Assembly (NCBI GenBank): GCA_947458265.1
Contig: CANGYF010000008.1
Location: 1-36,992, forward strand
DNA from: Betaproteobacteria bacterium
GTDB taxonomy: Bacteria > Pseudomonadota > Gammaproteobacteria > Burkholderiales > CAIKXV01
Direction of reading: 5' to 3'
DNA length: 36,992 nt
The notes below the pieces were generated by a model. It ran no database searches. It saw nothing but the letters and a program-made list of their open reading frames with translations, and had not been told where the DNA came from. A program made the position numbers and the translations under genes. Each line of letters starts with the position of its first letter. Within the stretch, counting starts at the first letter, position 1. Below are positions 16,980 through 24,024 of the stretch, piece by piece.

Positions 16980-17318
16980 ATGACCGTGCAAACAACGCCC
17001 CCGTTCAAGCGGGGCGATACCTTCGCTTTGTCTGGCGTTTACCGCATCAACGGTGTAGCCACGCCACTGAGTTCGCAAACTATTCGCTCCCAGTTGCGCA
17101 CAAGTGTTGGTGCTTTGGTCGCCAATCTGAGCGCAACGCTTGACTCCGATCAGACGGTCAACCCTGGGCGGTTTTATCTCTCGCTTGTTGATCCGGCGCT
17201 CTCGGCATCCTTTCCTGCGCCAGCCAATTTGTACTGCGATGTTGAGGTGCATGACGGCGGGATGGTGCGATCGACCGAAACCTTCATCGTGCCGGTCGTG
17301 CCCGATGTGAGTCAGTAA
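16980..17318 (+). CDS. Small tail-associated protein, family not recognised
   Basis: A 112-residue beta-rich protein between the J-like gene and the fibre genes. It opens QTTPPFKRGDTFALSGVYRI, with alternating strands and a single cysteine (LYCDVEV), and looks like a compact Ig-like or baseplate-adaptor fold. Start at ATG 16980, one base after the J stop, with AAGGA at 16969-16973. It probably links the tail tip to fibres, but no family was identified. Confidence 0.6.
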   Translation: MTVQTTPPFKRGDTFALSGVYRINGVATPLSSQTIRSQLRTSVGALVANLSATLDSDQTVNPGRFYLSLVDPALSASFPAPANLYCDVEVHDGGMVRSTETFIVPVVPDVSQ

Positions 17319-17332
17319 ATGGGGGCTGATCC

Positions 17333-17521
17333 ATGACGACCACGATGACCCCTACCACCGAAGTCAGCCTGAGCTTAGAGCCGCAGTGGGCCAGCACCTC
17401 GGTCGAAGTCACGCTCACTGTTCCCGGGCCACAAGGTCCGAAGGGTGACCAGGGGGCGGTCGGTCCGCCCGGCCCTTTGCCTGATGTCACTGCCTTGGCC
17501 CTAGACGCGGGCTACTTCTAA
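17333..17521 (+). CDS. Short collagen-like tail protein
   Basis: A 62-residue protein with an N-terminal beta-type segment and a central collagen-like Gly-X-Y run, GPQGPKGDQGAVGPPGP (residues 32-48), followed by a short end LPDVTALALDAGYF. Such short collagen-like modules appear in phage fibres as trimerising stems. Start ATG 17333 has GGGGGCT upstream. A 2-oxoglutarate oxygenase encoded 3.3 kb downstream makes prolyl or lysyl hydroxylation of this segment one possibility, which is inference only. Confidence 0.62.
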   Translation: MTTTMTPTTEVSLSLEPQWASTSVEVTLTVPGPQGPKGDQGAVGPPGPLPDVTALALDAGYF

Positions 17522-17540
17522 ATTTCAACGGAGGAAACTC

Positions 17541-18986
17541 ATGCCTAACCTAATTCAAATCAAACGATCGGCCACTACCGCCACACCGCCATCCTTGGCA
17601 GTGGGGGAACTGGCCTGGTCCGAAGTCAGCAAGACGCTGTTCATCGGAGAGTCCGGAAGTGTTGTCACAGCCGCCGCAGGCTCAGGCGTCTTTGCCAAGA
17701 AGGCTGACAGTTTCGCGGTCAGTGGAGATGCAACGGGAACGGGAACTCTGTCGGGCGGTTTGGTGCTGGCATTGGCTGCCAGTGGCGTCACCGCAGGCAG
17801 TTATTCCAATGTCAATGTGGATGCCAAAGGCCGCGTGACAGGCGGCTCAAATCCAGGCTACCTCACTGCGAACCAGAACATCGCGGTCTCTGGTGATGCC
17901 ACGGGCACAGGAACGACATCAATTGCGCTGACCTTGGGCAGCACTGGTGTCACGGCGGGAACCTACAACAACGGTAGCACCGCAATCACACCGCTGACGG
18001 TAGATGCCAAGGGCCGAATCACGGGCACAGGTGCAGCGGTCACCTTGACACCAGCTTGGTCGAGCGTCACTGGAAAACCCACTACCTTGTCCGGCTACGG
18101 CATCACTGATGCGCTGGCGCTGACTGGTGGAACGCTGACTGGTGCATTGACGCTGAGCGCTGACCCCACCAATGCGTTGCATGCAGCAACAAAGCAGTAT
18201 GTGGATAACGCCATCACCGGCCTTGATTTCAAAGCCTCGGTTCGCGCCACCACGACGGCCAATATCACCTTGTCTGGTATTCAGACGATCGATGGCGTGA
18301 CGTTGGTCGCTGGAGACCGGGTGCTGGTCAAGGATCAAACCGCAGGAGCGCAAAACGGTCTGTATGTCGCGGCGGCGGGCGCGTGGGCTCGATCGGCAGA
18401 CGCGGACAACACACCAGGCAGCGAATTGACTTCAGGCCTATATGTCTTTGTTGAAGAAGGCACCACATACGCAGATTCTGGGTGGGTATTGGCGACCAAC
18501 GGAGCCATCACCCTTGGCACTACAGCGCTGTCTTTCCAGCAGTTCAATGGGTTAGGCCAACTCACCGCCGGTACCGGATTGACCAAGACGGGTAGCACCC
18601 TTTCGCTTACAACCACTGGCGTCACTGCAGGGACCTATACAAGCCTGACGGTTGACACCACGGCCCGTGTGACCGCGGCAAGCAATCCTGGCTATATCAC
18701 GGGAAATCAGAACATTGCCATCTCAGGTGATGTGTCAGGTTCGGGCACGACTTCCATTGCGCTGACCTTGGCTGCCAGCGGCGTGAGCGCCGGCACCTAT
18801 AACAACAGCGCTACCGCGGTGTCCCCCTTCACGGTCGATGCCAAGGGGCGAGTGACTGCCATTGGCACCGCTGTGACTTTGACGCCCGCGTGGACCAGCA
18901 TCACAGGCAAGCCGACCACTTTGTCCGGCTTTGGGATTACCGATGCCTTGTCAACGAGCGCCACGATTGACGGAGGCTCTTTCTAA
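17541..18986 (+). CDS. Tail fibre protein
   Basis: A 481-residue, Thr/Gly/Ser/Ala-rich fibre with almost no charged stretches and no cysteine. Residues 1-45 (LIQIKRSATTATPPSLAVGELAW) match an N-terminal module shared with the next gene. Two 76-residue repeats (residues 117-192 and 395-470) flank a central part that includes the fibre-typical NALHAATKQYVDNAI and an IQTIDGVTLVAGDRVLVKDQ domain. Strong GGAGG ribosome-binding site upstream. Likely trimeric and surface exposed; host-range determinant together with the J-like protein. Confidence 0.85.
   Translation: MPNLIQIKRSATTATPPSLAVGELAWSEVSKTLFIGESGSVVTAAAGSGVFAKKADSFAVSGDATGTGTLSGGLVLALAASGVTAGSYSNVNVDAKGRVTGGSNPGYLTANQNIAVSGDATGTGTTSIALTLGSTGVTAGTYNNGSTAITPLTVDAKGRITGTGAAVTLTPAWSSVTGKPTTLSGYGITDALALTGGTLTGALTLSADPTNALHAATKQYVDNAITGLDFKASVRATTTANITLSGIQTIDGVTLVAGDRVLVKDQTAGAQNGLYVAAAGAWARSADADNTPGSELTSGLYVFVEEGTTYADSGWVLATNGAITLGTTALSFQQFNGLGQLTAGTGLTKTGSTLSLTTTGVTAGTYTSLTVDTTARVTAASNPGYITGNQNIAISGDVSGSGTTSIALTLAASGVSAGTYNNSATAVSPFTVDAKGRVTAIGTAVTLTPAWTSITGKPTTLSGFGITDALSTSATIDGGSF
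17889..18950 (+). repeat. Two 76-residue repeats in the tail fibre
   Basis: Unit 1 at 17889-18116 and unit 2 at 18723-18950 are each 228 bases and encode aligned segments sharing GTTSIALTL, AGTYNN, TVDAKGR, VTLTPAW, TGKPTTLSG and GITDAL. A shorter, more diverged copy of the first half precedes unit 1 (from about 17720). The repeats suggest a beta-solenoid or triple-beta shaft. Confidence 0.75.
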
Positions 18987-18988
18987 CC

Positions 18989-19183
18989 ATGGCCAACACC
19001 ATCCTGCACAAGCGCAGCAGCACGGCCGCGGCCGTGCCGACGGCTGCGCAAGTCACGCTGGGTGAGTTGGTGCTCAACGTGGCGGACGGAAAGATTTACC
19101 TCAAACGCTCAGATGGGGTGGTCGTGACCTTTGTTCCGGGTTACGTGCCGGGCCAGGGCGATTCAGCGCCCATGTGGAAGTAA
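18989..19183 (+). CDS. Short fibre-N-terminal-domain protein
   Basis: A 64-residue protein consisting of little more than the fibre N-terminal module: HKRSSTAAAVPTAAQVTLGE, LNVADGKIYLKRSDGVVV. It parallels residues 1-45 of the preceding fibre, so it is probably a duplicated attachment or capping domain, or a fibre that lost its shaft. ATG 18989 comes 2 bases after the fibre stop; GGAGG at 18972 is a somewhat distant ribosome-binding site. Confidence 0.65.
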   Translation: MANTILHKRSSTAAAVPTAAQVTLGELVLNVADGKIYLKRSDGVVVTFVPGYVPGQGDSAPMWK

Positions 19184-19209
19184 TTATGTGGAAATAGACG
19201 GAGAAGTTC

Positions 19210-19821
19210 ATGCCAGCGATACCTTCAAAAGCCAGCTTTACTGGCTCAACCGTGACCCAAGGGCAGTTTAAGACTGCCCTTGATTCTTTAAATGACTACC
19301 TCACGGGTCTTTTGGGCTCGGACGGGACAGCCGCGACAGCGCGCACGGCGCTGGGTGTGATTAACGCCTCGGCGCCTACCTACGCGCAAGTCATCGCTGC
19401 GCTGGGCTACACGCCACCGCAACCTGGCGGCACTGGAGCGTCTGGCACCTGGCCCATCAGTGTGAGTGGGAACGCGGCCACCGCCAGTCAACTCAATTCC
19501 ACAGCCGGTCCTGGCACCTACAACTGGTCGGGTCAGGGTGGGCAACCCAGCTGGCTTTGGGGTGGTAACGATGGAACCAATTTTTATGTCTACAACCCAG
19601 CGAACTTCTCGGTGAACTATGCAAACAGCGCCGGCGCTGTGCCGTGGACCGGAGTGAGCGGTAGGCCCACCACAGTTGCTTCGTTTCAGTACAACGGAAC
19701 CGTTGGCGACGGCGCCGCCGGGGCCGCAACGCCCAACGCCTTAGTACAGATCGCTTCGGATAACACGGTTCGCATCTATCGAAATACCAACTGCAATTGC
19801 AACTGCGATTGCTGCTGCTGA
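19210..19821 (+). CDS. Tail fibre-type protein with hexacysteine C-terminus
   Basis: A 203-residue protein resembling fibre ends: KASFTGSTVTQGQFKTALDS start, then the YAQVIAALGYTPPQPGGTG motif common in phage fibres, then an aromatic/Asn-rich region (LWGGNDGTNFYVYNPANFSV). It ends ...NTNCNCNCDCCC, with Cys at 195, 197, 199, 201, 202 and 203, the only cysteines in the protein. The start ATG 19210 has GGAGAAG upstream. The next three genes are tightly packed and include two candidate modifying enzymes, so this tail is the best candidate substrate. Metal binding or disulphide cross-linking of a trimer tip are alternatives. Confidence 0.82.
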   Translation: MPAIPSKASFTGSTVTQGQFKTALDSLNDYLTGLLGSDGTAATARTALGVINASAPTYAQVIAALGYTPPQPGGTGASGTWPISVSGNAATASQLNSTAGPGTYNWSGQGGQPSWLWGGNDGTNFYVYNPANFSVNYANSAGAVPWTGVSGRPTTVASFQYNGTVGDGAAGAATPNALVQIASDNTVRIYRNTNCNCNCDCCC

Positions 19822-19832
19822 GGACCCATCTC

Positions 19833-20624
19833 ATGAAAATCATCGCAGTGCGCAACGCACAAATTCATCCTCAGTTCCATCCCACTGTTCGTATTGGCTA
19901 TAACCCCGACACCAGTGAATTTAGCGTGTCCTTGTACCTCCCCGAACCTATCGTTGATGAGGCGCCTGCTGCCGAGCACAGCTTGCAACTGATTGGGTCA
20001 GCCTCAGTCAACCTCAGTGACCTACGCAGGCGATATGACTGGTGCGACCACCAGACCTACTTTTTGGCAGTTCATGCTGGAAATTTTCTGCCCCTCTTCG
20101 CGCTCTACCCTGAGACGCTGCCGAACCGGGAAACCGCTGTCGATTACGCCCAGCGTCTAAAGCGAAATTTGCTGGTAGGCATCAACGTGCCCTTTGGAGC
20201 GGCCACAAATGATGAGTTATTCATCACGGTCAACTTGAACGCTGATGCGACAGACGACAACATTGAGGTTGACGAGCATTGCACGCTGACCTGGAGTGAT
20301 GCGGCGAGCAGCGGCGCAGTTCGGACCATGAATTTCCCATTCATTCAGGTCCAAGCGCCCACCAGCATTCCCGCAGACGGCAAAGCTACGGTTCAATTGC
20401 GCATCGAGGACGTTGCAGGCCAGTTGCTTGATCGAGATGCTGTGGTCTACCTCGAAGCGGTGGGCGGGATTGTGCCGTTTACCAGGGTGCGCGCACAAGG
20501 CGGTCGTGCAACGGTTCCAGTGTCTGCAGCCGGGATGTCTGTTGGCGATGAGATTCGGGTCAAGTTTGGCTGGAAGTACTTTCCTGGCGCTGAAGAGGCG
20601 CGTATCGCGGTGGTGGCGGCGTGA
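19833..20624 (+). CDS. 263-residue protein of unrecognised family, Ig-like C-terminus
   Basis: No family was recognised. The N-terminal two thirds is a mixed alpha/beta soluble region (IAVRNAQIHPQFHPTVRIGY, YAQRLKRNLLVGINVPFGAA). Residues about 175-263 read as an invasin/Big-type Ig domain: QAPTSIPADGKATVQLRIED followed by GGRATVPVSAAGMSVGDEI. No signal peptide or membrane segment; cysteines occur in YDWCDHQ and DEHCTL. ATG 19833 with GAGGA at 19820-19824, 11 bases after the fibre stop; its own stop overlaps the oxygenase start. It may be a tail component, or a chaperone or recognition partner for the modifying enzymes; nothing in the sequence decides. Confidence 0.7.
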   Translation: MKIIAVRNAQIHPQFHPTVRIGYNPDTSEFSVSLYLPEPIVDEAPAAEHSLQLIGSASVNLSDLRRRYDWCDHQTYFLAVHAGNFLPLFALYPETLPNRETAVDYAQRLKRNLLVGINVPFGAATNDELFITVNLNADATDDNIEVDEHCTLTWSDAASSGAVRTMNFPFIQVQAPTSIPADGKATVQLRIEDVAGQLLDRDAVVYLEAVGGIVPFTRVRAQGGRATVPVSAAGMSVGDEIRVKFGWKYFPGAEEARIAVVAA

Positions 20625-21178
20625 TGCAGTGGCTGTTTGCATCCCCGGTGCTGCGCACTCCCTTGGGTCTGGATGACCTGAGGCGCCAGGAACTCAAGGA
20701 CAAGACGCTTTCTATCTACGGCCAGTTCAACCCCAATAGAAAGCCATGGAGCCGCTCAAGCCGGGAGTCGCTCGAAGGTTTAGACCCTGCCTTTGCAGAT
20801 CTGTTTTGCCGGATTAAAGACACCGCGAGCCAGGCCTTTGGCGTCGAGGTCATCTCTATTACCGGCAGGGAGGTCGTTCAGTTCAAGGGCGATTTCATCC
20901 CGCCCCATGTGGAATCGTCGCACCTGTCGGCCATTTACTGGGTCGATGGTGATGCCCATCCAGACCACACGCAAGGCGAGCATGATGGAGCGCTGGTTCT
21001 GCAAAGCCCGATCGGTCCCTTTGGAAGCAAGGCACTGCCTGGCGAAATGCGCGTCTGCATGGTCGATCCGTGCCCCGATCTGCTACTGGTCTTCCCGAGT
21101 CATCTGCTGCACTTCGGTCATGTCTATCTGGGGGACCGCCCAAGTGTTGAAATTCATATGGAGATGGAGGTGATCTGA
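20624..21178 (+). CDS. 2-oxoglutarate/Fe(II) oxygenase-like protein
   Basis: A 184-residue protein with the double-stranded beta-helix pattern of small 2OG-Fe(II) oxygenases (closest in feel to 2OG-FeII_Oxy_5). Candidate iron ligands are H95 and E97 (PPHVESSHLSAIYWV) and H163 (LLVFPSHLLHFGH); R172 (GDRPSV) would bind the 2-oxoglutarate carboxylate. The H-x-E in place of H-x-D, and a nearby H160 and H166, leave the exact ligand set open. Expected reaction is hydroxylation of a peptide side chain (Asn, Asp, Pro or similar). It starts at ATG 20624 (or GTG 20621), overlapping the previous stop, and its own stop overlaps the radical SAM start. Confidence 0.75.
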   Translation: MQWLFASPVLRTPLGLDDLRRQELKDKTLSIYGQFNPNRKPWSRSSRESLEGLDPAFADLFCRIKDTASQAFGVEVISITGREVVQFKGDFIPPHVESSHLSAIYWVDGDAHPDHTQGEHDGALVLQSPIGPFGSKALPGEMRVCMVDPCPDLLLVFPSHLLHFGHVYLGDRPSVEIHMEMEVI

Positions 21179-22545
21179 TGGCCCAGTTCAGGATCAAACT
21201 GATTGCTCCTGATGACTCCGAAAGGGAGTTGCTCTACGACAACCAGACAAGTCGACTGACCTGGGTCGGCGATGCAGGCGAGCAACCTGTGCTTGAGGTC
21301 ACGCCCAAGCAGTTTTCCGAGGCGCAAGTCGTCAGTGCAAACAACCCTGGTCGCAAGGGACTGATCAAGACCCTGAAAATCAGCCTGGGCTTGTCCTGCA
21401 ATTACGCCTGCAACTACTGCAGCCAGCGGTTTGTCCCGCATGCCGACAGCACCAACCCCTCAGATGTGGATGATTTCCTGCAACTGGTGCAGGGCAGCCT
21501 GAGCAAGGCTCCGGAGCGCATTGAGTTTTGGGGCGGTGAGCCACTCGTTTACATCAAGACCTTAAAGCCCTTGGCCGAGCATCTGCGCGTGCTTTACCCG
21601 GATGCCGAGTTTCTGATGATCACCAACGGCTCACTACTCACCCTTGAGATCAATGAGTGGTTGGAGCAGATGGGCTTTGCGATTGGCTTATCGCACGATG
21701 GACCTGGCTATCGCGCTCGCGGAGCTGACCCGCTCGATGACCCACATCAGCGTCAAATGATCCTTGATCTCTACACCCGCTTGCATCCCAAAGGCCGGAT
21801 CAGCATCAACGCCATGATCAGCAAGCAAAATTCCAGCCGTGCCGCGGTACAGCTTTGGCTGCAAGAGCGCTTTGGAGCCGATGTTCAGATCGGTGAAGGT
21901 GCCTTTATTGATCCCTACGACGAGGGCGGTCTGGCTGCCACTTACAAGACTGCCCGCGAGCATTCAGCGTTCAGAACGCAGGGATTCGGTGAGCTTCGAG
22001 CCGGACTGACAGGCCGCTTTGAAATCACCCACCAAAAGATTCAAGACTTCATCGACTCTATTCGCTTTGCACGCCCTGCCTCGGCACTGGGTCAGAAGTG
22101 CGGCATGGACCGTAGCGCCAACCTTGCGGTCGATCTCAAAGGCAATGTCATCACTTGTCAGAACGTGAGTGCGGCGGCCACGGCTCCGAATGGACAGCCG
22201 CATCTGATTGGCCAACTCTCAGACCTATCCGCCGTGCGCATGAAAAGCGCCACGCACTGGAGCCAGCGCCAAGGCTGCTCTTCCTGTCCAGTGCTGCAAA
22301 TTTGCAAGGGCTCGTGCATGTTCCTAGAAGGACCGCTTTGGGAAGCCGGGTGCGACGCTGCTTACTCGGACAACGTGGTGTTTTTTGCCGCGGCCATTGA
22401 GTTCCTCACCGGTTGCATGCCGGTCTTTATCGACGGCGATTTGCCGCCAGATCGGAAAGACATTTTTGGCCTTGCTCGTTCTAAAGCCGTGTCACCAGGC
22501 CCAAGGAAGGTCATTCCGATCGCGCTAGATCAGCGCCCAGCTTAA
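21178..22545 (+). CDS. Radical SAM/SPASM enzyme, putative peptide-modifying
   Basis: A 455-residue enzyme. Residues 1-68 form a small beta-rich N-terminal region. The radical SAM core follows with the 4Fe-4S motif C74-x3-C78-x2-C81 (LSCNYACNYCSQ) and a SAM-binding GGEP at 119-122. The C-terminal SPASM region has C308, C327, C367, C370, C376, C380 and C392, plus C413, matching the seven-cysteine spacing that holds two auxiliary clusters in peptide maturases such as AlbA and anSME. Known SPASM enzymes form thioether or carbon-carbon links in peptides or oxidise Cys/Ser. Last gene before a terminator; coupled (TGATG) to the oxygenase gene. Substrate is inferred from context. Confidence 0.9.
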   Translation: MAQFRIKLIAPDDSERELLYDNQTSRLTWVGDAGEQPVLEVTPKQFSEAQVVSANNPGRKGLIKTLKISLGLSCNYACNYCSQRFVPHADSTNPSDVDDFLQLVQGSLSKAPERIEFWGGEPLVYIKTLKPLAEHLRVLYPDAEFLMITNGSLLTLEINEWLEQMGFAIGLSHDGPGYRARGADPLDDPHQRQMILDLYTRLHPKGRISINAMISKQNSSRAAVQLWLQERFGADVQIGEGAFIDPYDEGGLAATYKTAREHSAFRTQGFGELRAGLTGRFEITHQKIQDFIDSIRFARPASALGQKCGMDRSANLAVDLKGNVITCQNVSAAATAPNGQPHLIGQLSDLSAVRMKSATHWSQRQGCSSCPVLQICKGSCMFLEGPLWEAGCDAAYSDNVVFFAAAIEFLTGCMPVFIDGDLPPDRKDIFGLARSKAVSPGPRKVIPIALDQRPA

Positions 22546-22563
22546 GCCAACCCTTCACCAACT

Positions 22564-22595
22564 GCCCGCCTGGTTCGCGCCAGGGCGGGCTTTTT
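22564..22595 (+). terminator. Rho-independent terminator after the tail/modification genes
   Basis: GCCCGCCTGG (22564-22573) pairs with CCAGGGCGGGC (22580-22590) with one bulged G, loop TTCGCG, followed by TTTTT. It separates the tail and modification operon from the lysis genes. Confidence 0.8.
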
Positions 22596-22611
22596 GCATT
22601 TTGGAGACCAC

Positions 22612-22911
22612 ATGACCGATTCAGACGAAGCCGTACTCGTAGAGAACATGTTGCTACTGCGCAAGGAAGATTTTGATGAACTGCTCAACAGCGCTGCTCA
22701 ACGCGGTGCTGAACGTTGCCTAGCCCAGTTGGGCCTTGAAAACGGGAGTGCCGCTAGGGATATACGGGAGCTTCGCGACCTTCTTGACGCGTGGCGCGAT
22801 GCCCGTAGGACAGCGTGGCAAACGACTATCAAGGTAGCCACGACGGGCATCCTGGCAGCGTTACTGGTCGGTGCAGCCATCAAACTCAAGATGATGGGAG
22901 GCACCCAGTGA
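22612..22911 (+). CDS. Small membrane protein of the lysis cassette (DUF6127-like)
   Basis: A 99-residue protein with an acidic N-terminal helix (MLLLRKEDFDELLNSAAQRG), the segment REL RDLLDAWRDARRTAWQT and one C-terminal transmembrane helix (TGILAALLVGAAIKL). The pattern matches DUF6127 proteins encoded just before phage holins. ATG 22612 has TTGGAGA upstream. Its stop overlaps the GTG start of the next gene. It may be a holin partner or antiholin; the role is inferred from location. Confidence 0.72.
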   Translation: MTDSDEAVLVENMLLLRKEDFDELLNSAAQRGAERCLAQLGLENGSAARDIRELRDLLDAWRDARRTAWQTTIKVATTGILAALLVGAAIKLKMMGGTQ

Positions 22912-23384
22912 TCGAGACATTGCTCGGCGGCCTTCTGGGTGGCGCATTTCGCCTTGCGCCAGAGATTCTGAAGTGGCTTGATCGCCAAGGGGAGCGTGGT
23001 CATGAGTTGGCCATGCAGGACAAGGCGCTGGAGTTCGAAAAGGTTCGCGGTGCGCAACGCATGGCCGAGATCGGGGCTGCAGCGGAAAGTGCATGGAACA
23101 CCGGCGCCATTGAAGCCCTGAAAGAGGCTGTGGCGGCCCAGGGGCGTCCTTCTGGTGTGGGATGGGCGGACGCCCTTTCCGCGAGCGTTCGCCCTGTCAT
23201 TACCTACTGGTTCATGGGGCTCTACTGCGCAGCAAAGACGGCCGCATTCATCGGTGCCTTAACCGCGGGCGTCAGTTGGGGCGAAGCCATCTTGAATGCG
23301 TGGACCCAAGCAGATCAGGCGCTATGGGCTGGTGTTTTGAACTTCTGGTTCCTGGGGCGTGTCTTTGATCGAGTGCGATCATGA
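22908..23384 (+). CDS. Holin-like protein (3TM type)
   Basis: A 158-residue protein starting at GTG 22908, overlapping the upstream stop. It has an amphipathic N-terminal region (LLGGLLGGAFRLAPEILKWL), a charged helical middle, and two clear hydrophobic segments near the C-terminus (VITYWFMGLYCAAKTAAFIG and ALWAGVLNFWFLGRV), as in the 3TM holin-like proteins of phages and gene transfer agents. It sits directly before the endolysin, with ATGA overlap. Expected to form the membrane hole that lets the endolysin out. A longer frame from 22815 would overlap the previous gene by about 100 bases and is unlikely. Confidence 0.75.
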   Translation: MIETLLGGLLGGAFRLAPEILKWLDRQGERGHELAMQDKALEFEKVRGAQRMAEIGAAAESAWNTGAIEALKEAVAAQGRPSGVGWADALSASVRPVITYWFMGLYCAAKTAAFIGALTAGVSWGEAILNAWTQADQALWAGVLNFWFLGRVFDRVRS

Positions 23385-23842
23385 ACCCTGTTCCGCAGGC
23401 GGCGATCGATCTCGCCAAGCGGTTCGAAGGCTTTTGCAGGGTGCCGAAAAGTGACCCTGGCCGGGCATATCCATACGTTTGCCCAGCCGGGTTCTGGACG
23501 ATCGGGTACGGGCACCTGTGCGACCAAGCCCATCCCCCGATTACTCTGGTCCAGGGTGAGGCTTATCTGGAGGCTGACATGCAGTTGGCCCTGCGAGCAA
23601 CGCTTCGATTCTGTCCCGTTTTAGCGACCGAGCCTGAAACACGGCTCGGGGCAATCGTCGACTTTACGTTCAATCTGGGAGCAGGCCGGCTTCAGACTTC
23701 AACTCTCCGACGGCGAGTCAATCAGAGGGACTGGGCTGGGGCGGCTTCCGAGCTGAGGCGCTGGGTGTACGGTGGGGGCAGAGTACTGCCGGGGCTTGTG
23801 GCGCGGCGAGAGGCAGAGGCTTACATGCTCAGCAGCTCCTGA
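23381..23842 (+). CDS. Endolysin (GH24 lysozyme)
   Basis: Muramidase that cuts the glycan backbone of peptidoglycan at lysis. 153 residues with the GH24 opening AAIDLAKRFEGF (E16 catalytic), a GFWTIGYGH motif (T40) and a C-terminal FNLGAGRLQTSTLRR segment. The second catalytic position appears as C34 rather than Asp, giving a Glu/Cys/Thr set like that of P1 Lyz. A roughly 9-residue insertion (KSDPGRAYP) separates E16 and C34 compared with T4 lysozyme. No signal or SAR segment, so export relies on the holin. Confidence 0.9.
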   Translation: MNPVPQAAIDLAKRFEGFCRVPKSDPGRAYPYVCPAGFWTIGYGHLCDQAHPPITLVQGEAYLEADMQLALRATLRFCPVLATEPETRLGAIVDFTFNLGAGRLQTSTLRRRVNQRDWAGAASELRRWVYGGGRVLPGLVARREAEAYMLSSS

Positions 23843-24024
23843 CTGAGCGAGTTCGAAAAACTCAACAAGAACATAGACTTACGCCGATTTCGAAACTCTC
23901 TCGTCGCCGTACTTTTCTGAAAAAGTCAGGAGCTTTTGCGGGAGCCCTGCATCCACGCGGGTTTTGAGCGGTGGGGATTCGAACTTATAAAGAGGCCGAA
24001 CATCCGCTGGCAATCTAAATCACC
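23843..24024. other. Phage/bacterial junction region without a gene
   Basis: No coding sequence and no spanin gene is visible here. The region holds a short inverted repeat GAGTT-CGAAA-AACTC near 23851-23865 and, on the minus strand, a T-arm-like GTTCGAATCCCCA (23972-23984). The latter could be a tRNA-derived attachment remnant, but the stem pairing is poor. Confidence 0.4.

Follow-up and report, generated by a model that had tools for sequence, protein, structure and literature searches.

A radical SAM/SPASM enzyme paired with a cysteine-tailed phage fibre: a candidate system for maturation of the fibre tip

Introduction

Does a tailed phage chemically finish the tip of its own fibre? The question is raised by a prophage of a Betaproteobacteria bacterium, contained in a stretch of 36,992 nucleotides (contig CANGYF010000008.1 of assembly GCA_947458265.1, positions 1 to 36,992; hereafter the window). 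In this prophage, small fibre genes are followed by four further genes, all on the plus strand: a tail fibre with an alternating Asn/Asp-Cys end, a protein of 263 residues, a 2-oxoglutarate (2OG)-Fe(II) oxygenase-like protein, and a radical S-adenosylmethionine (SAM)/SPASM enzyme. Phage receptor-contact tips are generally treated as unmodified polypeptide. The original prediction for this DNA proposed, on the contrary, that the phage matures its own receptor-binding tip. The analysis described here lends that proposal the support of co-occurrence—the presence of the enzyme tracks the Asn-Cys tail in many phages of environmental bacteria—while the modification and its chemistry are what we infer. 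It is likely that the C-terminal Asn/Asp-Cys tail of the fibre is the substrate and is covalently matured by the radical SAM/SPASM enzyme of the same operon.

The fibre and its cysteine tail

The fibre gene (19210..19821, plus strand) encodes 203 residues, part of which matches annotated tail fibre proteins of Ochrobactrum phage OC and Sinorhizobium phage PBC5. The protein features exactly six cysteines, at positions 195, 197, 199, 201, 202, and 203. These six, which the original prediction had placed at the C-terminus, all fall within the last nine residues and belong to the motif NCNCNCDCCC (19789..19818, plus strand), the proposed substrate.

Tails of the same kind occur in 53 distinct tips and carry between 3 and 12 cysteines each. 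The residues between the cysteines, counted in 72 distinct tails of the first forward set described below, are mostly Asn, Asp, and Ala (192, 48, and 46 of 329, respectively). Ahead of the motif, the 53 tips hold no strongly conserved recognition sequence (the best column reaches 16 of 53), so the motif is their common element; nor do they hold a conserved leader-like stretch, the motif being the C-terminus of the fibre. Convergence of unrelated fibre families is not claimed, as single linkage by shared stretches joins 99 of the 116 motif proteins. The window fibre stops at the motif, whereas in other fibres—among them that of Achromobacter phage JWF—a Hint domain follows directly.

Two variations on the tail were seen in passing. 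One locus (L083:4011-5090) encodes three tandem small fibre-like proteins, all of which end in an identical Cys motif. In four others (L106, L108, L064, and L203), motif proteins of approximately 100 to 160 residues, not obviously fibres, lie directly upstream of the enzyme.

Co-occurrence of the enzyme and the tail

At a tblastn threshold of 1e-3, relatives of the enzyme are found in 430 viral stretches with a first query and in at least 578 with a second, more distant one; the two sets may overlap. The first forward set comprises 162 loci: the best 80 of the 430 virus contigs, the best 80 of 84 genome contigs, and two Achromobacter loci. The second comprises 79 loci fetched from the virus stretches (best 80 of at least 578). 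The forward rule requires a closed open reading frame (ORF) of at least 60 residues on the same strand, ending at most 4 kb upstream of the enzyme. Such an ORF qualifies if its final 14 residues include a C-x-C-(x)-C run and its final 30 contain two or more [ND]C, or if the run is followed by a Hint start. Counted were loci with more than 3.3 kb of upstream sequence.

The rule applies to 103 of 122 loci in the first set and to 52 of 56 in the second, hence to 155 of 178 overall, and inspection adds seven. One locus of the second set (L353) holds the same enzyme stretch as one of the first (L142). A looser Hint pattern gave spurious matches in L016, L026, L090, and L094; the stricter pattern leaves the 103 of 122 unchanged. 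Matches to the rule elsewhere or on the opposite strand are limited to 3 of the 122 and 3 of the 56 loci. In the first set, two are spurious Hint matches and one is L017, with its motif at a greater distance upstream; those of the second set are opposite-strand ORFs where the motif lies.

The reverse test started from the tail and ignored the enzyme: a DNA pattern for NCNC[ND]C, in one fixed codon choice, was searched in virus contigs and yielded at least 120 stretches. In 120 of these, the motif ends an ORF (with at most 14 residues after it) 18 times and is followed by a Hint start 3 times. The enzyme is present in 16 of these 21 stretches and, including the full records of L202, L219, and L261, in 19 of 21. 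In the 90 control stretches, where no ORF of at least 60 residues translates the pattern as the motif, the enzyme is absent throughout, including the 58 with 3 kb of downstream sequence. Where the motif is read internally (n = 9), two stretches hold the enzyme, plus L191 in its full record, the whole-record search not extending to the remaining records of the 90 controls and nine internal readings. Several records of the reverse test also belong to the forward set.

The matched test compares fibres that share modules with the window fibre, from 80 virus loci and three phage records. With a closed fibre ORF and at least 3 kb downstream, the enzyme accompanies 16 of 16 fibres with the motif and 0 of 36 without. 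The other 31 of the 83 were left unjudged—22 without and 4 with the motif being too short downstream, and 5 having open ORFs—and none of them showed the enzyme. A weaker enzyme match (9.4e-21) was obtained for L400 and L401, which may reflect a partial frame. Most of the 16 motif loci are closely related to one another, and many recur in the forward set, so that they do not represent 16 independent events.

The association reaches enzymes only 38 to 45% identical to the window enzyme. In a FastTree tree of 48 clusters at 65% identity, with five members labelled by inspection, the motif accompanies at least one member of 33 clusters and is absent from 8; one cluster is of the YcaO type described below, and 6 were left unjudged. 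Of the eight motif-less clusters, five are ORFs of a single locus (L383); under midpoint rooting, the remaining three, like the YcaO cluster, fall among motif lineages. The expectation that radical SAM genes of this type neighbour a Cys-ended fibre is thus borne out in all three tests. In the terms used for ribosomally synthesized and post-translationally modified peptides (RiPPs), a candidate ribosomal substrate is found beside the maturase, by rule in the 155 of 178 loci and in the matched test with 16 of 16 against 0 of 36.

The radical SAM/SPASM enzyme

The enzyme gene (21178..22545, plus strand) encodes 455 residues and represents the proposed fibre-tip modifying maturase. The CX3CX2C triad (C74, C78, and C81) is kept in 38 of 39 representatives. 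The seven downstream SPASM cysteines—at 308, 327, 367, 370, 376, 380, and 392, and counted correctly in the original prediction—are each kept in 38 or 39 of the 39. The radical SAM core PF04055 scores above its cut-off, the SPASM domain TIGR04085 reaches 32.9 against a cut-off of 27, and phrog_1802 matches at 5e-60. The full-length enzyme is single copy in its genome; a second place matches residues 63-159 only (5.5e-5). Profiles of the PapB, geopeptide, nif11, and QHNDH maturases match all 36 enzymes scanned at 1e-5.

The predicted model (pLDDT, predicted local distance difference test, 90.8) is closest to peptide-modifying maturases: 5wgg/5why (CteB), ChlB, anSME, TigE (a cyclopropylglycine-forming enzyme), SuiB, and SkfB. 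The identity is 12 to 18%, and the TM scores normalized on the query are 0.43-0.57. The matches also include the epimerase EpeE. Of the solved folds, 5wgg, whose title names thioether formation, matches best. The fold and profile neighbours (5wgg, PapB, QhpD-type, and geopeptide) and the residues between the cysteines together favour Cys thioether links, and whether thioethers would be the main product is an even call.

The most serious competitor concerns this chemistry and leaves the substrate in place: the enzyme may modify the Cys tail by epimerisation, by oxidation of Cys to formylglycine, or through carbon-carbon links. EpeE, anSME, and TigE do stand beside 5wgg among the fold matches, and the profile matches spread over many maturases. 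The top fold, however, is titled thioether formation, the top NCBIfam match is PapB, and the density of cysteines would favour S-linked chemistry. A non-thioether route is therefore a possibility to be held tentatively, behind the thioether one.

A non-phage branch of relatives was also observed. In L143:3301-7209, L147, L163, and L138, relatives of the enzyme lie beside a YcaO-nitroreductase ORF, called by Pfam in L143 and by homologous ORFs in the other three. A conserved ORF of approximately 70 residues lies between the two genes in L143, L147, and L163. These loci look like an azole and radical SAM peptide cluster, mostly in Variovorax.

The oxygenase and the 263-residue protein

The gene 20624..21178 (plus strand) encodes the accessory 2OG-Fe(II) oxygenase-like protein, with 184 residues counted from an ATG and a GTG one codon upstream. 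The Pfam match is weak (PF13759, E = 0.001, below cut-off), whereas phrog_81 matches better (2e-12). Of the His-X-Asp/Glu...His iron triad typical of 2OG-Fe(II) oxygenases, the two histidines (H96 and H164) are invariant in 41 of 41 sequences, and position 98, two places after the first of them, is His in 22, Glu in 15 (the window included), Asp in 3, and Ala in 1.

The gene 19833..20624 (plus strand) encodes the 263-residue unknown protein. Profile searches of Pfam, NCBIfam, and PHROG gave it no family match. Its model is confident (mean pLDDT 94.9). The seven viral proteins that match it best, with TM scores of 0.62-0.77 on the query, are all unnamed or uncharacterised, and solved structures match partially, with TM scores of at most 0.31 among the matches listed. 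Several of these partial matches are Ig-like, and Big_1 and Invasin_D3 each match 1 of 36 family members; the C-terminal part is probably Ig-like, and the protein is a possible chaperone or tail component. A sequence search of solved structures with this protein and the oxygenase gave no match at E 1.

Within 3 kb of the enzyme, a relative of the 263-residue protein is found in 125 and a relative of the oxygenase in 109 of the 155 motif loci. Near the 23 loci without the rule motif, the numbers are 3 and 4. Both are usually, not always, upstream of the enzyme, and some cassettes contain two oxygenase genes. Both companions are therefore frequent and not obligatory, and of the predicted co-occurrence of four genes, the core pair of motif and radical SAM enzyme stands. 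Longer cassettes after the fibre were noticed in L354, L018, and L228, the one of L354 including a fatty acid desaturase-like gene (PF00487); Pfam gave no match for six L018 cassette genes.

That the oxygenase acts on the same tail as the radical SAM enzyme is a proposition with as much for it as against it. Its target could instead be the prolines of collagen-like fibre stalks: in the window, the ORF 17333-17521 upstream of the fibre genes has a collagen-like stretch (PF01391 0.016, below cut-off), and collagen stalks occur in a few of the motif fibres, such as those of L024 and L367. The two do not go together, however. Oxygenase relatives are near 26 of 40 motif loci with collagen-like repeats and 83 of 115 without (Fisher p 0.42, the loci not being independent), and a tie between oxygenase and stalk was rejected. 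Stalk hydroxylation is thus unlikely.

Proposed mechanism, exceptions and remaining alternatives

In the proposed mechanism, the enzyme would be made from the same late operon as its fibre substrate, cleave SAM, and abstract hydrogen from residues beside the cysteines. The tail would be covalently modified before or during fibre assembly, most likely by thioethers from Cys to neighbouring Asn, Asp, or Ala. The oxygenase may add an optional oxidation, and the 263-residue protein may help or join the tip. The mature fibre would end in a rigid, chemically finished tip at its host-contacting end. In some phages, the tail would first be fused to a Hint domain; cleavage by this domain immediately behind the motif, suggested by its presence and position, may then place the motif at the C-terminus. 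The likeliest role is adsorption through a finished, rigid, or reactive tip, as it is usually the C-terminus of a fibre that contacts the host; a role in trimer locking is possible. That the enzyme acts on the Cys tail is very likely, the firmest part of this scheme.

A further reading, on which we are evenly divided, sees in the tip a virion-borne ribosomal natural product: a multiply cross-linked, partly hydroxylated Asn-Cys peptide, made by RiPP-type enzymes and carried on each fibre chain end to bind or breach the host. The stop codon or self-cleavage by Hint would expose it.

Of the 23 failures of the forward rule, seven have the motif on inspection. In L017, it is further upstream; in L018 and L354, the cassettes are longer and the fibre lies beyond the first stretch. 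In L316 and L336, the rule missed the Hint start; L106 has a longer tail after the motif, and L063 has a looser run, a variant. Among the motif-less loci, the enzyme of L155 is split over several frames, and the fibre there has a degraded motif at its end. L115, L148, L154, and L162 match the enzyme only partially, while L138, L143, L147, and L163 are of the YcaO type. L150 and L152 are Bacteriovorax loci with no phage genes recognised by eye.

Several observations weigh against maturation of the tail. After inspection, 16 of the 178 loci lack the motif, and for five of these (L046, L100, L141, L146, and L301) there is no full explanation. A search of 399 genomes from the host's order finds the enzyme at 1e-60 in 6, the window's own included, and four of the five others lack the motif (L380, L381, L382, and L383). 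The sole motif carrier among the five is L379, probably the same record as L103, since both contigs are 41,527 long. The enzyme family is thus not confined to fibre loci, and relatives without the motif exist in these genomes and in the YcaO loci, yet the association with the motif is strong overall. Conversely, L171 encodes a terminal NCNCDC in a protein of 1065 residues with no such enzyme in its 63.7-kb record, and L228 has the motif with no enzyme match in its 7.7-kb fragment. The forward, reverse, and matched tests share many records and close relatives and are not fully independent. Fold similarity is moderate, with a TM score of approximately 0.57 to the best solved structure. Among the NCBIfam matches listed for the window enzyme, the SPASM domain alone reaches its cut-off, so that the enzyme chemistry is not readable from homology. 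Finally, alternating cysteines could bind metal.

Two of the order's motif-less loci have features of their own. In L383 (genome G121), several radical SAM-like ORFs follow one another, a relative of the 263-residue protein lies upstream of them, and no motif was seen. In L382:2342-3280 (minus strand), a 313-residue protein is encoded directly upstream of the enzyme relative. By eye only, this protein seems to combine a nif11-type leader, with Gly repeats at its end, with a core and the start of a Hint-like sequence; the reading was set aside, as NCBIfam and Pfam gave no match.

Metal binding can be phrased as an alternative: in the fibre trimer, the alternating cysteines would bind a metal or an iron-sulphur cluster at the tip, as a Cys counterpart of the HxH iron sites in known tail tips, with the radical SAM enzyme serving the building of the metal site or another step. 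Alternation would place the cysteines on one face of a strand, three chains would meet at the tip, and 3 to 12 cysteines per tip suit loose metal binding. We know of no metal tip that needs a dedicated radical SAM enzyme, however; the enzyme tracks the motif, its closest solved folds are peptide-modifying, and one branch of its relatives lies in a YcaO locus. We regard a metal tip as improbable. That the genes are unrelated cargo (morons) behind the fibres by chance, acting on the host or on nucleotides, is scarcely credible: phrog_81 is filed under morons and auxiliary genes and 46 of the 155 motif loci have no oxygenase relative near, but related fibres with and without the motif (16/16 vs 0/36), the DNA controls (0/90), and an order and strand kept across diverged lineages speak against it.

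Prophage setting of the cassette

By its gene content, the setting is a tailed-phage late operon. The window features, in order, genes for terminase, portal, head protease, major head protein, head-tail adaptor, tape measure, distal tail, and J-type tail protein. Behind the cassette lie the genes of a small protein of unknown function and, at some distance, of an endolysin. The predicted close packing of the four genes is found as described: 11 nt separate the fibre gene from the 263-residue gene, and the other two junctions overlap as TGATG. The terminator predicted at 22564-22595 fared less well. A plausible terminator-like hairpin with a T-run at 22572..22591 (plus strand) marks the cassette end, and it is not statistically supported, as a scan of 17000-24000 yields 7 hairpin sites versus 6.7 in shuffles. 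A promoter scan of the same region found none.

Implications

The pairing suggests that viruses chemically finish the tips that touch their hosts. If enzymes finish the tips, fibres made without the partner enzyme would be incomplete, and host-range predictions based on sequence only would miss chemistry. For a large radical SAM family, the system provides a candidate substrate and a testable enzyme. If the natural-product reading is true, there would be a widespread class of enzymatically finished receptor-contact tips.

Comparison with known systems

As the original prediction had supposed, none of the papers listed by the literature search describes a radical SAM enzyme that modifies phage fibres, with preprints and most subscription journals outside the reach of the search. 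The accessible portions of two papers touch on single parts—Hint in a terminase intein (PMC3556154) and radical SAM in a Campylobacter phage (PMC3322345)—and describe no such fibre system. In pelagimyophages, radical SAM gene cassettes are added in the variable host-recognition region that holds the tail fibres; the accessible portion of that paper draws no link to fibre modification or a Cys tail, and the likeness is one of description (PMC7029224).

The solved peptide maturases (5wgg, ChlB, anSME, TigE, SuiB, and SkfB) provide the closest folds and differ in substrate from a fibre tail. PapB, of the freyrasin-type ranthipeptides, whose maturases form thioether links from Cys S to C-beta, is the best NCBIfam match of the window enzyme (3.5e-15, over the radical SAM and SPASM parts), with 56 bits against an equivalog cut-off of 340. 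According to the accessible text, PapB tolerates Cys-Xn-Asp spacings from n = 0 to n = 6, and it shares Cys/Asp motifs and a tolerant spacing with the window case (PMC9413430). Unlike PapB substrates, the window tail lacks a Cys-X3-Asp pattern beyond the short alternating run, and no leader peptide was recognised.

QhpD is a radical SAM enzyme that, in the accessible part of its description, forms several Cys-to-Asp/Glu thioether links in a whole ribosomal protein, the QHNDH gamma subunit (PMC8172795). Its profile TIGR03906 matches 36 of 36 window-type enzymes; the window enzyme scores 52 bits against an equivalog cut-off of 453, and its neighbours are phage genes, not qhp. The candidate substrate, unlike that of QhpD, is a phage fibre with an Asn-Cys tail.

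The nearest relatives are found in phages themselves. In the phage collection at 1e-5, relatives of the enzyme occur only in Achromobacter phages JWF (two records) and 2-1 and are approximately 47% identical. As in the window, a motif fibre is followed by an unknown protein and then by the enzyme, the fibre thus lying two genes upstream of it. Unlike in the window, the Asn/Asp-Cys run passes at once into a Hint-type sequence (in JWF, PF05203 at residues 308-344, 3e-12), and no oxygenase or 263-residue-like protein was found in the stretch. The depositors of JWF had annotated, separately, a Hint-family protein and an anaerobic sulfatase-maturating enzyme. All parts of the system belong to families already known. 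What is, as far as we have seen, a new kind of system is the combination of a RiPP-type maturase and a fibre tail of the virion.

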